Positions 56,946 through 63,410 of a stretch of DNA of 64,000 bases are shown here, piece after piece. The position numbers were made by a program, and so were the translations under genes. The notes under the pieces were generated by a model. It searched no databases. It saw only the letters and a program-made list of their open reading frames with translations, and was not told the origin of the DNA. Numbering within the stretch: position 1 is the first letter of the stretch; every line of letters begins with the position of its first letter. The DNA comes from Salinisphaera sp. T31B1 (GTDB taxonomy: Bacteria; Pseudomonadota; Gammaproteobacteria; Nevskiales; Salinisphaeraceae). The stretch lies in contig NZ_APNH01000001.1 of assembly GCF_040361275.1 (NCBI RefSeq), positions 806,001-870,000 on the forward strand, given 5' to 3'.

Positions 56946-56966
56946 AAATGTAACGATATAACATAT
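56946..56966 (+). promoter_or_regulatory. Zur box upstream of TonB receptor gene
   Basis: 21-bp A/T-rich site of the form AAATGT-N5-TATAACATAT, close to the proteobacterial Zur consensus (AAATGTTATANTATAACATTT), 48 bp before the start codon. The right half-site is nearly exact, the left weaker. Expected role: repression in zinc-replete cells. Confidence 0.7.
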
Positions 56967-57013
56967 ATTTCTCACGCTTCGGCGTGTCGAATCCGTATTT
57001 TGTTGGGGAAAGC

Positions 57014-59191
57014 ATGTCCAAATGTGGTTTGAGCCTGCCCGCGGCTGGCTCCTGTGTAGTCTTGCTGACGCTCGGCGGCTTCGCGCCCGCCTGGTCGCAG
57101 CCGTCGTCGGCCTCTGAGGCGGCACAGCCTTTGTCGCTGGCGGGCGTCGACGACACGCGAGGGCTCGGGCCGATCTCGGTCACCGGCGCGCCGCTGCCGG
57201 GGAGCCCGTTATCGCAGGCCGCCGATGTCGATGTGGTCGAGTCCGACGCTATCGAGGCCAAGGGCGCGACCAATCTCGGCGAAGCGCTGGACGACCTGGC
57301 CGGGGTGAATTCGATCAGCACGGGCAACAGCGTCGGCAAGCCGGTCATCCGCGGGCTGTCCGGCGAGCGCATCAAGCTTCTGTCCGACGGTGTGGGCGTG
57401 GACCACCAGCAGTTCGGTGTGCGGCATATGCCCACCGTTGATACGTTCCTGCTCGATCGTGTCGAGGTCGTACGCGGGGCCTCGAGCGTACTCTACGGCT
57501 CCAGCGCGCTGGGTGGCGCGATCAACCTGCTGCCGCCGGAGATCGCTTGGGATACCCCGGTCGAAGGCGAAACGCTCACCCGTTATTCCACCAACAACGA
57601 CCAGTGGGATACCGGCATCAAGGCCACCGGCGGCAACGGCCGATTCGGTTATTCGGCCGGCATCATCCGTCGCAGCGCGGGCGATATCGAAACCCCGGAC
57701 GAGCCAACCTATTTTCCGCCACCGCCGGCTGAACAGTTCCGGGACGCGCCGGCCTATACCGGCAAACTCGGCTATACGGATTTCAATCAGGTCAACGGCG
57801 ACTTCGCGCTGGGCTATCGTGACGACGACGGCGGTGTGTGGACCGCGCGCTATTCGCGTTTCAACGACGAACACAACTTCCTGCTGCCGCCACCGGCCGG
57901 CAACCTGCCGCCCGCGGCCGGCGAGGAAGGCGTCGGCCAGTTCATCGACAACGAACAGATCGAACTGGCGGGCGAGAAAGAAGCCGGCGGCATCACCTGG
58001 AAGCCCAAGCTCGTCTGGCAGAACAATCGTCGCCGCTCGAATGCCCCCGGCACGCCGCGCGTGGCCGGGTTCGATAACGCGATCGATATCGAATTCGATC
58101 AATACACCGCGCGCCTGGAAGGCCAGCACGGTCCGGTGCTTGGTCTGGACGGCGGCACCGTGGGTATCGAATACGTCACCAAGGATCAGGAGTCACGCGG
58201 GACCACCCAGCTGTCGCCGGGTGGCACGGTCGACAACGCCGCGATCTTCGCGTTCGAGGAAAAGGGCATCGGCGATCTGCTGCTGCAGGCCGGGCTGCGC
58301 TACGACCACCACGAGGTCGAGGGCAAGGCGTCCAAGACGGCCAATCCGTCACCCAGCGTGGTCGATGCCGACAAGCAATCCTACGATGTGGTCACCGGCT
58401 CGCTGGGCGGTATCTACAGCCTGACCGAGCGACTGTCCGTCGCGGCCAACGTCGGGCGCGGTTTCCGTGCACCGAGCCTGTTCGAATTGTATGCAGCAGG
58501 TCAGCATGGCGGCGTCGCGGCATTCCAGGTGGGCGACCCCAACCTCGAGGAAGAGACCTCGCTGAATACCGATCTGTCGCTGCGCTGGGCCTCGGAGGCG
58601 CTGCGCGCCAAGGCCACGGTCTATCGCAATGCGATCGATAACTACATCTTCCTGCGCGATACCGGCGAAACGATGGCCGGCCTGCCGGTGCTGGCCAACG
58701 ACCAGACCGACGCCCGGCTCATCGGCGCCGAGTTGTCGATCGAAGCCGATGTCAGTGATGCCGTCACTCTGTCCCTGACCGGCGAGACGGTCGATGGCGA
58801 ACGCCGAGACAACGGCGACGAACTGCCGCTGCTGCCAGCCGACAACGTCAGTCTCGGGGCACGTTTCACCCCCGCCAGCGAGGGGTGGCTGCGCGATCCG
58901 CGGGCCTCGGTCAAGCTGAGCTACTACGCCTCAAAGGACGCCGCGCCCGGCGAGCCGTTCGCCCAGTTCGACGATGCGCCGTTCGGGAGCGCGTCTACCG
59001 ACAGCTATTACCTGGTCGACGTCGGCGCCGGGTTTTCGCCTCAAATCGCCGGCCAGACCGTGCATCTGGATGTTGCGATCAACAACCTTCTGGACGAGGA
59101 CTACCGTGGTTTCCTGGATACCTATAAGGGCTATGCGTTGTCGCCGGGCCGTGATATCCGCCTGACCGCACGCGTGCCGTTCGGGGGCTAG
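57014..59191 (+). CDS. TonB-dependent outer-membrane receptor, ZnuD-like
   Basis: 725 residues: signal peptide (ending FAPAWSQPS), plug domain (DVVESDAIEAKGATNLGEAL, VIRGLSGERIKLLSDGVGV, VEVVRGASSVLYGSSALGGA) and a 22-strand barrel with C-terminal aromatic-ended strand RLTARVPFGG. Imports a metal or metallophore across the outer membrane using TonB energy. The Zur-box-like site upstream and the following ZIP gene (2-bp gap) indicate zinc; ZnuD proteins in other bacteria do this. GGGGAA precedes ATG 57014. Asp/His-rich loops (VDHQQFGVRH) may bind zinc. Confidence 0.87.
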   Translation: MSKCGLSLPAAGSCVVLLTLGGFAPAWSQPSSASEAAQPLSLAGVDDTRGLGPISVTGAPLPGSPLSQAADVDVVESDAIEAKGATNLGEALDDLAGVNSISTGNSVGKPVIRGLSGERIKLLSDGVGVDHQQFGVRHMPTVDTFLLDRVEVVRGASSVLYGSSALGGAINLLPPEIAWDTPVEGETLTRYSTNNDQWDTGIKATGGNGRFGYSAGIIRRSAGDIETPDEPTYFPPPPAEQFRDAPAYTGKLGYTDFNQVNGDFALGYRDDDGGVWTARYSRFNDEHNFLLPPPAGNLPPAAGEEGVGQFIDNEQIELAGEKEAGGITWKPKLVWQNNRRRSNAPGTPRVAGFDNAIDIEFDQYTARLEGQHGPVLGLDGGTVGIEYVTKDQESRGTTQLSPGGTVDNAAIFAFEEKGIGDLLLQAGLRYDHHEVEGKASKTANPSPSVVDADKQSYDVVTGSLGGIYSLTERLSVAANVGRGFRAPSLFELYAAGQHGGVAAFQVGDPNLEEETSLNTDLSLRWASEALRAKATVYRNAIDNYIFLRDTGETMAGLPVLANDQTDARLIGAELSIEADVSDAVTLSLTGETVDGERRDNGDELPLLPADNVSLGARFTPASEGWLRDPRASVKLSYYASKDAAPGEPFAQFDDAPFGSASTDSYYLVDVGAGFSPQIAGQTVHLDVAINNLLDEDYRGFLDTYKGYALSPGRDIRLTARVPFGG

Positions 59192-59193
59192 TG

Positions 59194-60012
59194 ATGGATC
59201 ATACCGGTTCGGGTGCCGCGGCCGACCCGCTCGGGCGCGGCGCCGGCCACGCGGTCGGGCTCATCTTCTTCTGCGTCGTGGCATTCGGTGCGCTGGCCGG
59301 TTATGACAAGGTCGCCCTCATTGCACTGACCGCCTTCGGCGCGATGACCGCCGGTGCCGTGCTCGGTTATCGCGCGACCGGCGCGAGTGCGGCGTGGCAG
59401 GCCCTCGACGGTGTGGCTGGCGGAGCGATGATCGCGGCGGCCTGTATCCTGCTCCTGCCGGCGGCCATCGCACTGGACCCGCCGCTGGCGGGTCTCGGCG
59501 TGGCGCTGGGTCTATTGTTCGGCCACGCATTACATCGTGCCTGTCGCGAACGTGCCTGGCGGCCGGGCGCACTGGGTGAATCCAGCTTGATCGCGCTGAC
59601 CGTGCATTCGGCCGGCGCCGGCGTGGTCATCGGCATGCTCTACGGACAGATGCCCGAGCTCGGGCTATGGCTGGGCACGGTCATCGTCGCGCACAAACTG
59701 CCGGCCGGGTATGCCATTGCCCGACGCCTGCGTGCCCAGGGTGGCGCGCTGGCCGGCATCGCGTTGCCCGCCTGTGCGGTGGGGGTGGTGGCCGTGCCGG
59801 TCGCCATGGCCACCACTGTGCTGCCGCCCTCGGCCGCGATCGGCGCGGTGTGTCAGGGGCTGGCCGCAGGCATTTTTCTGCACGTCGGCCTGGAATGCGT
59901 TGCTTTGGAAGGGGCCGTCAATGCGGCGGTTGATACGCCCGGTTGGCGAATCTGGCTGCCGGTGGGCGCAGGTATGGCGTTGATGATGCTGTTGCGGATC
60001 GCTTTCGGCTGA
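59194..60012 (+). CDS. ZIP-family metal transporter
   Basis: 272 residues, about eight transmembrane helices. Helices 4 and 5 carry the metal-path residues LTVHSAGAGVVIG and VIVAHKLPAGYAIA, with His in each, typical of ZIP proteins. Brings zinc from periplasm to cytoplasm. It starts 3 bp after the TonB receptor stop (ATG 59194, or GTG 59191), so both sit in one Zur-controlled operon. The usual His-rich loop between helices 3 and 4 is short here. Confidence 0.87.
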   Translation: MDHTGSGAAADPLGRGAGHAVGLIFFCVVAFGALAGYDKVALIALTAFGAMTAGAVLGYRATGASAAWQALDGVAGGAMIAAACILLLPAAIALDPPLAGLGVALGLLFGHALHRACRERAWRPGALGESSLIALTVHSAGAGVVIGMLYGQMPELGLWLGTVIVAHKLPAGYAIARRLRAQGGALAGIALPACAVGVVAVPVAMATTVLPPSAAIGAVCQGLAAGIFLHVGLECVALEGAVNAAVDTPGWRIWLPVGAGMALMMLLRIAFG

Positions 60013-60077: not shown

Positions 60078-60098
60078 AATTGTTACGTTATAACGTTT
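60078..60098 (+). promoter_or_regulatory. Zur box upstream of dksA2-like gene
   Basis: AATTGTTACGTTATAACGTTT, 21 bp, strongly matching the Zur consensus in both half-sites, 12 bp before the dksA2 ATG. It should cover the promoter and repress the downstream operon when zinc is plentiful. Confidence 0.8.
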
Positions 60099-60109: not shown

Positions 60110-60517
60110 ATGAACGAAGACGAACTGCGGGCGATGTCCGACGACGATTACATGAACGATGCGCAACTGCGGTTCTTCCGCGATCGTCTGCTGGCGCAGC
60201 GCGTCGAAGTGCTCGATCGCGAGCGTGATATTTGAGTCCGCCTGAACGACAACAGCGTGTTCGCCGACCCTGGCGACCGGGCGATGGCAGAGGAATCCCG
60301 CTGGCTGGACCTGCGCCTGCGCGATCGCGAAGCCCGATTGCGCCACAAGATCGATTCATCGCTGCGGGCGATTCGTGACGGCGACTACGGCTGGTGCGAG
60401 GTATCCGGCGAGGCGATCGGTATTCCACGTTTGCTCGCCCGGCCTACCGCCACGACCTGTGCCGATGTCAAGACCGACGCCGAGACCCGCGAGCGCGCCT
60501 TTCGCGGCGGCCGCTGA
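60110..60517 (+). pseudogene. dksA2: DksA2-like zinc-independent RNA polymerase factor, interrupted by TGA
   Basis: Continuous frame from ATG 60110 encodes a DksA protein (DDYMNDAQLRFFRDRLLAQR ... [14 protein letters not shown] ... [16 protein letters not shown]) except for an in-frame TGA at codon 42 (60233-60235). Of the four zinc cysteines of DksA, two are replaced (CEVSG, CADV), as in zinc-independent DksA2 of Pseudomonas, which is Zur-regulated. Sequence on both sides of the TGA is well conserved, so the stop is recent, a sequencing error or a readthrough site. Without readthrough only the coiled-coil start would be made; restart at GTG 60257 would give a C-terminal fragment. Confidence 0.8.
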
Positions 60518-60549: not shown

Positions 60550-61752
<1,203 letters not shown>

Positions 61753-61872: not shown

Positions 61873-63102
61873 ATGCCTGCCCGAATCAGACAGCCTGCAT
61901 TGAGCCGACTGTCGTCGTCGCCACGACGCGCCATACCGGTGACGATCGTGTGCGGTGCCCCGGGGGCGGGCAAGACAGCGCTGATCGAGCGATGGATAGA
62001 GGCCCACGGCCAACGTCGATTCGCCATTATCGCTGATACGAGCCCGCGGCCCGAAAACGCCGTGGGCGGCGTCGGTGCCACGGCGTTTCATGTCCGTGGT
62101 TCTGTCGAAGCGTTCCTGAGCCAGTCGATCACCGATACGCGCCAGGATGTTCTGTGCCAGGAGCTGTTCCGCACGCTGGACAGCGGCGACGTCGATGGTG
62201 TGTTCATCGAGGCGGGGCTGACCGCGGACCCGGCCACGATGGTCGCGGCATTACGCCAGCAACGGCCGGGCTATGCGCTGGTCGACCTTCTGGATGTTGC
62301 GCGCGTGGTGACCGTGCTCGACTGTGCGCGTCTGCAGGACGACTATGCCAGTACCCAGGCATTGGTCGAGCGCGATCGCCGCATACCGCCGTCCGACGAA
62401 CGTACCGTGGCCAACATCGTGGCATTGCAGATCGAGTCTGCCGATACGATCGTGCTCAACAAGACCGATCTCGCCAGCGCTCAGCTCAGGCGTGAGGTTT
62501 GCGATATAGCGACGGTGCTCAATCCCGGCGCGCAGCGAATCCAGACGCGTTTCGGCGAGCTCGAAGAATCGGGCATGGCCGCCGATGACTTGTTCGGACG
62601 CGTTGATCGTGCTCATTACGGCCCGGGTTGGTTGCGCTACCTCGAAGAAACTCTGCCGACGACCCACGCCTACCAGGTGTCTCGCTGCGTTTATAAACGC
62701 CGCCGGCCATTTCACCCCGAGCGATTGATGACATTGCTCGACAACGGCTGGCCCTGGACGCTGCGCACGCGCGGCCAGTTCTGGATCGCCAGCCGGCCCG
62801 ACTGGGCAATCGACATACAGCAGGCCGGTACGTCGGTCGCCATCCAGCCCTTCGGTTATTGGTGGGCAAGCGATGTGGTGGGAGGGTGCACGCCCGAGGA
62901 TCCCCAGTTGCTCGAGGCCCTGAACCAACTCTGGCATCCGCTGTACGGCGACCGTCGCCAGCATGTTGCGATCCTGGGCGTTGATTTCGATCCGGTGACG
63001 TTAGAACGAGACCTCGACGACTGCCTGCTCACCGATGCGGAACTGGCCGGCGGCTGGAACCACTGGCGTGCCATGGCCGATCCCTGGCCGGTCTGGCGCT
63101 GA
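61873..63102 (+). CDS. COG0523 paralogue lacking the CxCC motif
   Basis: 409 residues, clearly homologous to the preceding gene over its whole length, including the C-terminal CobW domain (RRPFHPERLMTLL, FWIASRPDW, DCLLTDAEL). Walker A is GAPGAGKT (28-35) and the base motif LNKTDL is kept, but the CxCC segment is replaced (RGSVEAFLSQSITD) and ESTG reads EAGLT. It may bind GTP without metal, acting as a partner or regulator of the canonical paralogue. Start at 61873 has GAGG 8 bp upstream; ATG 61867 is an alternative. The 120-bp spacer before it shows no Zur-like site. Confidence 0.85.
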   Translation: MPARIRQPALSRLSSSPRRAIPVTIVCGAPGAGKTALIERWIEAHGQRRFAIIADTSPRPENAVGGVGATAFHVRGSVEAFLSQSITDTRQDVLCQELFRTLDSGDVDGVFIEAGLTADPATMVAALRQQRPGYALVDLLDVARVVTVLDCARLQDDYASTQALVERDRRIPPSDERTVANIVALQIESADTIVLNKTDLASAQLRREVCDIATVLNPGAQRIQTRFGELEESGMAADDLFGRVDRAHYGPGWLRYLEETLPTTHAYQVSRCVYKRRRPFHPERLMTLLDNGWPWTLRTRGQFWIASRPDWAIDIQQAGTSVAIQPFGYWWASDVVGGCTPEDPQLLEALNQLWHPLYGDRRQHVAILGVDFDPVTLERDLDDCLLTDAELAGGWNHWRAMADPWPVWR

Positions 63103-63168: not shown

Positions 63169-63410
63169 ATGAAACCGACCGGTATCGAGGCGCTCTTCGA
63201 TCAGACCTGCGCGTCGGGCTACGACCAGCTGCAGTCCCGATTGGCACCGCTACGCGATGTGCTGCATCTGCTGACCGGCGTCATCCTCTCCGAGCTCCCG
63301 GCCGATGCGCGCGTGCTTTGCGTCGGCGCCGGGACTGGCACGGAGTTGATCGCCCTTGCCGAAGAGTTCCCGGCTGGTATTTCACCGCGGTAGAGCCGTC
63401 GCGCTGACGC
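63169..63410 (+). pseudogene. Truncated class I SAM-dependent methyltransferase
   Basis: From ATG 63169 (AGGAG 6 bp upstream) the frame encodes an N-terminal helix and the SAM-binding motif I (ARVLCVGAGTGTELIALA), then goes off frame and stops at 63393. Restoring one base near 63373 would continue FPGWYFTAVEPS, the expected motif II region, but that frame also ends within a few codons. Only about 80 of some 230 residues remain. The 140 bp after it (63411-63550) holds no gene. It follows the COG0523 pair, as do methyltransferases in some zinc-regulated operons. Confidence 0.7.

Follow-up and report, generated by a model that had tools for sequence, protein, structure and literature searches.

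Why would a zinc-homeostasis cluster carry, directly behind an intact zinc metallochaperone gene, a second GTPase of the same family that lacks the family's metal-binding motif? The question is raised by P0001, a gene for a protein of 409 amino acids at 61873-63102 on the + strand of the window, by which we mean the whole 64,000-nucleotide stretch of DNA analysed here. Its upstream neighbour, zigA (60550-61752, + strand), encodes a canonical CxCC zinc metallochaperone GTPase that passes the NF038288 model (617.9 bits, cut-off 600) and has its CICC, ESTG and NKTD motifs all present; P0001 starts 120 bases past it on the same strand. The sequence-only reading had described the two as tandem COG0523 GTPases, the second without CxCC, and both halves of that description hold. 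P0001 matches the domain models PF02492 (65.6 bits, cut-off 20.7) and PF07683 (CobW_C, 64.5 bits, cut-off 22; residues 270-385, 62680-63027, + strand), and it is not a chance frame, since it is 37% identical to its own genome's ZigA over 394 aligned positions. At 234.6 bits against the NF038288 cut-off of 600, it fails as a ZigA equivalog. Three proteins of the genome match PF02492, namely ZigA, P0001 and one encoded elsewhere that carries CACC.

The paralogue keeps Walker A, NKxD and the CobW C-terminal domain, as had been claimed. The P-loop GAPGAGKT lies at residues 28-35 (61954-61977, + strand) and the guanine-specificity motif NKTD at residues 196-199 (62458-62469, + strand). CXCC, the motif that identifies the family alongside the P-loop (Haas 2009), is absent: in the alignment, residues 83-91 (62119-62145, + strand) read SQSITDTRQ where ZigA has NGCICCTLR, with none of the three cysteines left. 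The conserved acidic residues of switch I are missing as well. The ESTG segment had also been called lost, and here the claim stands in part: IEAGLTADP aligns gap-free to IESTGISEP, the switch-II glycine is gone (G116L), and the Walker-B glutamate E113 is kept (Walker B/switch II, 62197-62232, + strand). The seven cysteines and eight histidines of P0001 are scattered, the closest two lying seven residues apart, and the protein ends in DPWPVWR, without a His-rich tail.

Measured against an alignment of 48 ZigA sequences, P0001 retains 60 of 111 near-invariant residues, and the control, its own genome's ZigA set against the other 47, retains 111 of 112. Retention in P0001 amounts to 9/17 around the P-loop, 6/25 in the stretch from switch I to CxCC, 4/12 around Walker B, 13/20 in the stretch including NKxD, 6/9 in the stretch that follows, and 22/28 in CobW_C. 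The losses cluster in the metal-site and switch regions, and CobW_C is largely kept. Third-position GC (0.743) is low and falls within the range of 0.61-0.86 of 39 window frames, a mechanically picked set in which some frames lie on the wrong strand across zigA and P0001; base composition thus speaks neither for nor against a foreign origin.

An AlphaFold2 model of P0001, built from 49 sequences, reached a mean pLDDT of 78.1 and a pTM of 0.74, with pLDDT below 50 at residues 1-16 and 58-75 and between 50 and 70 at 73 residues. The top three Foldseek matches were YjiA structures (E 5.0e-17 to 3.1e-16); YjiA, the nearest solved structure to the model, is a COG0523 protein. The TM-scores by query are low (0.39-0.40) and the rmsd is about 11, which suggests that the two-domain arrangement either differs from that of the YjiA crystal or is wrong in the model.

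The surroundings of P0001 are those of a zinc-homeostasis cluster, which occupies the end of the window on the + strand. It comprises a TonB-dependent receptor gene (56984-59191; haemin-receptor and ZnuD-like models match below their cut-offs), a ZIP-like membrane protein gene (59191-60012; a weak PF02535 match of 16.3 bits, cut-off 35.1), a dksA-type gene (60110-60517), zigA and P0001, all on the + strand. An in-frame TGA (60233-60235) breaks the dksA-type gene, of which an intact copy exists in a locus of the same genus (L236); by reading, the C-terminal zinc finger of the window's gene has cysteine at only two positions of four, which likens it to zinc-free DksA paralogues. Behind P0001, at 63169-63393, lies a 74-residue frame whose motifs, by eye, resemble the beginning of a class I methyltransferase and which then stops; it is apparently a broken gene. 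Local decay is real, because dksA is broken and this truncated-looking gene, judged by eye, directly follows P0001. In a locus that reaches past the window (L004, 14551-18296), the genes encode, as judged by eye, an ABC ATPase, a permease whose loop is rich in histidine, and one more protein, and beyond the ABC genes a frame that looks by eye like an ArsR-type regulator runs into a His-rich stretch. The zinc island thus appears, from these genes, to extend beyond the window.

Two Zur-like boxes were found in the 64-kb window with a Zur consensus and at most three mismatches allowed, where 0.11 were expected and none of 100 shuffles gave two. Both sit upstream of zinc-cluster genes, one before the TonB receptor gene (56949-56963) and one before the dksA-zigA-P0001 series (60081-60095). 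The same consensus search found no box in the 120 bases separating zigA from P0001. A 13-base core drawn from the two boxes has eight matches in the genome with at most one mismatch and one for the reversed control; the two window boxes are exact by construction, and three of the eight matches were assigned to genes. One of these, with one mismatch, lies just past the window, before the ABC ATPase gene (L004). The series dksA-zigA-P0001 is on this evidence a probable Zur operon, in which Zur would bind at the candidate boxes and P0001 would probably be co-transcribed with zigA. The combination that had been read from the letters, an intact COG0523 protein in tandem with a paralogue without the metal site in a zinc-starvation setting, is borne out by this neighbourhood.

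The sequence-only reading had further expected that the CxCC-less form would occur together with a CxCC copy in a conserved manner, and our searches gave this no support. In the order, 27 of 85 genomes (its own included) match P0001; among the 84 others, no full-length match is closer than 39%, and those full-length matches that were read all carry CxCC. Shorter pieces exceed that value, e.g. 41% over 158 residues in a fragment at a contig end. No match closer than 38% was found in the class sample (37 of 369 genomes matching at E <=1e-30) or in the phylum sample (91 of 398 at E <=1e-40), with at most four candidates per genome scored in each. Among 1619 plasmid records, all matches were below 60% identity, the best among the matches listed reaching 34%. 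An exact-peptide scan of genome contigs gave 108 stretches, none of which was confirmed. An alignment scan returned no orthologue among the best 80 of 586 confirmed loci, where all 91 COG0523 frames have CxCC; two of these 80 loci (L171 and L200) hold tandem ZigA-type pairs with CxCC in both copies.

The operon also occurs without P0001 in two relatives of the same genus. One genome of the same genus (G003) has the same operon, with TetR, TonB, ZIP-like, intact dksA and zigA genes, and lacks P0001; in a second (G006), the operon runs from TonB to zigA as far as the contig reaches, with masked stretches, again without P0001. In each of these two genomes, the position behind zigA is occupied by a convergent gene for a GCLCC COG0523 protein of another subfamily (L236, 3510-4610; L237, 2614-3747). 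The window's genome shows no clear orthologue of this protein; its own third COG0523 protein shares just 40% identity with it, over 134 residues.

Phylogenetic analysis places P0001 among the ZigA proteins of its order, in a set of 15 rows (the order plus one other genome) with support 100/96 in a 78-row tree, and in a ZigA set of the same size with support 96 in a 165-row tree. Its branch measures 5.49, 4.3 and 2.3 in three trees, where the median end branches are 0.26, 0.19 and 0.065, i.e. about 20 times the median or more. A position as sister to its own genome's ZigA and two same-genus ZigA proteins was not rejected (p-AU 0.105). These topologies point to an origin within the ZigA family on a long branch, for which a local duplication of zigA followed by very fast change would be the simplest account; arrival from an unsampled relative is possible. 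When its own genome's zigA was drifted at random to 40% identity, 5.9 stops arose on average (range 0-12), compared with none in P0001.

Proteins of ZigA type without CxCC are found elsewhere. They surfaced through the phylum search in one family (f193), in which 104 of 150 genomes match at E <=1e-30, scoring being limited to 11 candidates per genome. This family is, we infer, the Burkholderiaceae, because the ZigA of one of its genomes (G680) and the ZigA of Caballeronia sp. dw_276 (L167) share 100% identity. All 117 places of the Burkholderiaceae set were read, and CxCC is present in 85 and absent in 32. In four of the 32, the P-loop pattern is missing too (L145, L249, L288 and L290); the alignment of L145 covers the C-terminal two thirds only, so the absence of CxCC there may be a matter of truncation. 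A His-rich tail, defined as at least five histidines after the conserved end, occurs in 32/32 CxCC-less places and in 27/85 places with CxCC. Fisher's test for this link gave 2.6e-11 on 106 places, a figure that ignores kinship and is inflated because of kinship among the places; the kinship-corrected test has three independent pairs, the tail is mostly the same within pairs, and significance was unreachable. One ZigA-type protein (L124/L130) carries GCIYC, from which a single cysteine of CxCC is missing, together with a His-rich tail, and has the look of a step on the way to CxCC loss.

The state of CxCC changes at least three times on the quicker 165-row tree, P0001 being one of these changes, and four times on the smaller, more careful 78-row tree. 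The former takes in the Burkholderiaceae places from all 117 except the truncated L145; the latter is without the CxCC-less genes L108/L128, L124/L130 and L125/L132 and without 60 places. By these trees, CxCC has been lost at least three times within the ZigA branch, with at least two losses within the Burkholderiaceae set, and the loss in P0001 is separate from those, from which it also stands apart because it has no His tail. A topology uniting 13 CxCC-less rows in a single clade was tried and rejected by the AU test (p-AU 4.3e-4), with caution due to the long branch; CobW3, discussed below, was not among the rows.

Occurrence mostly alone had been named by the sequence-only reading as evidence against a pair, and with regard to a ZigA-type partner this is what the Burkholderiaceae display: the CxCC-less protein is the sole ZigA-type match in 30 of 32 genomes (E <=1e-30, at most 11 candidates scored per genome), and the other two (G680 and G964) have a second such match with CxCC. 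A CxCC-bearing COG0523 protein of another subfamily is encoded within about 5 kb at 3/9 CxCC-less loci and at 2/13 CxCC loci among the wide loci. All 12 genomes tested of the 32 encode a further protein that matches PF02492 strongly (189 bits or more), which is weak evidence for a partner because the family is common and few of these matches were read for CxCC.

The arrangement had been thought undescribed, which is wrong in its general form, given CobW3 (PMC11340326) and Rv0106/MRF (PMC2770081). According to PMC11340326, CobW2 and CobW3 of Cupriavidus metallidurans belong to the Zur regulon. CobW3 has neither an internal GCxCC site nor GTPase activity; its large His-rich C-terminus binds several metals, and, together with the ZIP importer ZupT, it acts either alongside CobW2 or in opposition to it. 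P0001 resembles it in lacking GCxCC and in lying in a zinc operon beside a CxCC-bearing COG0523 protein and a ZIP-like neighbour; unlike CobW3, it has no His-rich C-terminal region. In trees that do not contain CobW3 itself, P0001 also sits among the ZigA proteins of its order and away from the CxCC-less Burkholderiaceae rows. The mycobacterial protein MRF is COG0523-like, is under Zur control and has a degenerate metal motif (PMC2770081; PMC13418864); Rv0106 is reported there to lack the GTPase motifs and the canonical CXCC (PMC2770081), and its cysteine motif is given as CXSC, or as CXXC in the review (PMC2770081; PMC13418864). P0001 is similar in being COG0523-like, in its altered CXCC motif and in its putative Zur setting, but it carries both Walker A and NKxD, and a cysteine motif is missing from it. 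As a candidate member of MRF it was rejected, scoring 128.7 bits against NF047431 (cut-off 375).

P0001 shares architecture and kind of operon with COG0523 proteins of ZigA/YciC type, and differs from them in having no CxCC, no normal switch I and no switch-II glycine. PMC2770081 notes that several Pseudomonas carry two COG0523 genes linked to Zur, and reports Zur-linked DksA paralogues without the C4 finger. Like the latter, P0001 is a copy near a Zur-like box whose zinc ligands are lost; such DksA paralogues are thought to replace zinc-using proteins, whereas P0001 is a copy of a zinc chaperone with the intact original adjoining. PMC12208494 calls CxCC invariant in all studied COG0523 members, and states that in MigC zinc at CxCC stimulates GTPase activity and that the Walker-B glutamate is needed for this stimulation. 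The literature covered, in which subscription papers mostly fell outside the scope, yielded no CxCC-less ZigA tandem and no family-wide account of CxCC loss. Metal-site loss in COG0523 is partly known already, and P0001 is an unusual variant rather than a new kind of system, because similar CxCC losses have occurred elsewhere in the family.

We tentatively favour, at somewhat less than even confidence, the reading that P0001 is a pseudo-chaperone uncoupled from metal, which under zinc starvation would compete or pair with ZigA. It would be a lineage-specific, fast-diverged duplicate of ZigA. When zinc becomes scarce and Zur leaves the promoter, P0001 would probably be made together with zigA. 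With its P-loop and NKxD kept, it would probably still bind guanine nucleotide, and its C-terminal partner-binding domain is still present; with CxCC gone and the switches altered, it would neither carry zinc nor hydrolyse GTP under zinc stimulation. We infer this uncoupling from zinc because zinc at CxCC stimulates the GTPase activity of MigC; nucleotide binding and lack of metal would both follow from the motifs. P0001 would most likely act by taking up the clients of ZigA, the partner of ZigA or ZigA itself while bringing no zinc, and would thereby tune the destination of scarce zinc, a regulatory action for which we lean on how CobW3 is reported to behave towards CobW2 and ZupT. The sharper version, in which a zinc-free copy, made in zinc starvation from one operon with the intact copy, binds GTP together with ZigA's partners or ZigA and decides which clients starve of zinc, is possible and rather doubtful. 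In favour of a pseudo-chaperone are the uneven pattern of residue loss, the intact P-loop and NKTD, the position behind zigA and the Zur-like boxes, the structure model with its nearest match to YjiA, the absence of stops, the losses of CxCC in other ZigA-type proteins and the existence of one functional CxCC-less protein, CobW3 (PMC11340326); against it are the lack of a P0001 orthologue in the searched sets, the very long branch and the decay nearby. The CobW3 analogy is incomplete, because CobW3 and the CxCC-less Burkholderiaceae proteins have a His-rich tail and P0001 has none; a predicted pseudo-chaperone pair of ZigA and P0001 would differ from the His-tailed CobW3 type.

The serious rival is decay: selection on the duplicate would be strongly relaxed, P0001 would be heading for loss, and its visible motifs would be leftovers without a role. 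We consider this plausible rather than probable, and it stays serious because dksA upstream is broken and an apparent gene fragment lies downstream. The extreme branch in three trees and the absence of an orthologue-grade match in 84 other genomes of the order agree with it. The full-length, stop-free frame does not, nor does the functionally patchy conservation (22/28 in CobW_C against 6/25 from switch I to CxCC); about six stops would be expected under pure drift, and as some runs gave zero, the stop count speaks only modestly against decay throughout the whole divergence. A new task unrelated to zinc delivery, exercised through the old partner-binding domain, e.g. as an MRF-like effector of ribosome hibernation, is improbable. 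NF047431 does match residues 137-408, and mycobacterial MRF is Zur-controlled, COG0523-like and degenerate in its metal motif; yet the score is far below the cut-off, the genome's own ZigA scores higher (203.4 bits), Rv0106 is reported without the GTPase motifs that P0001 keeps (PMC2770081), and P0001 groups with the ZigA of its order. Metal binding through other residues, which would make P0001 a chaperone of altered specificity, could draw on its seven cysteines and eight histidines, but given their scatter and the lost switch-I acidic residues we regard it as quite improbable. Least credible, and very unlikely indeed, is a zinc-buffering protein of CobW3 type: the loss of CxCC, the zinc operon and the ZIP-like neighbour would suit it, as would the action of CobW3 with ZupT (PMC11340326), but the DPWPVWR end contrasts with the tail in all 32 CxCC-less Burkholderiaceae places, and the rejected single clade also tells against it, subject to the long-branch caution and the absence of CobW3 already given.

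COG0523 is usually defined by CxCC, yet the motif has been lost at least three times within the ZigA branch. The His tails of the CxCC-less Burkholderiaceae proteins suggest that another metal-binding part can substitute, on events too few for significance. P0001, with neither CxCC nor tail and adjoining an intact ZigA, offers a natural case of separation of function, and whether CxCC serves as the delivery site or mainly as a trigger of GTP hydrolysis becomes testable.

Paired ZigA-type genes occur in a further arrangement on a Rhizobium plasmid (L062, 1167-9209), where a gene for a large DUF4082 protein lies between two ZigA-type GTPase genes and the set is followed by an ABC transporter and then by a gene for an HlyD-type adaptor.
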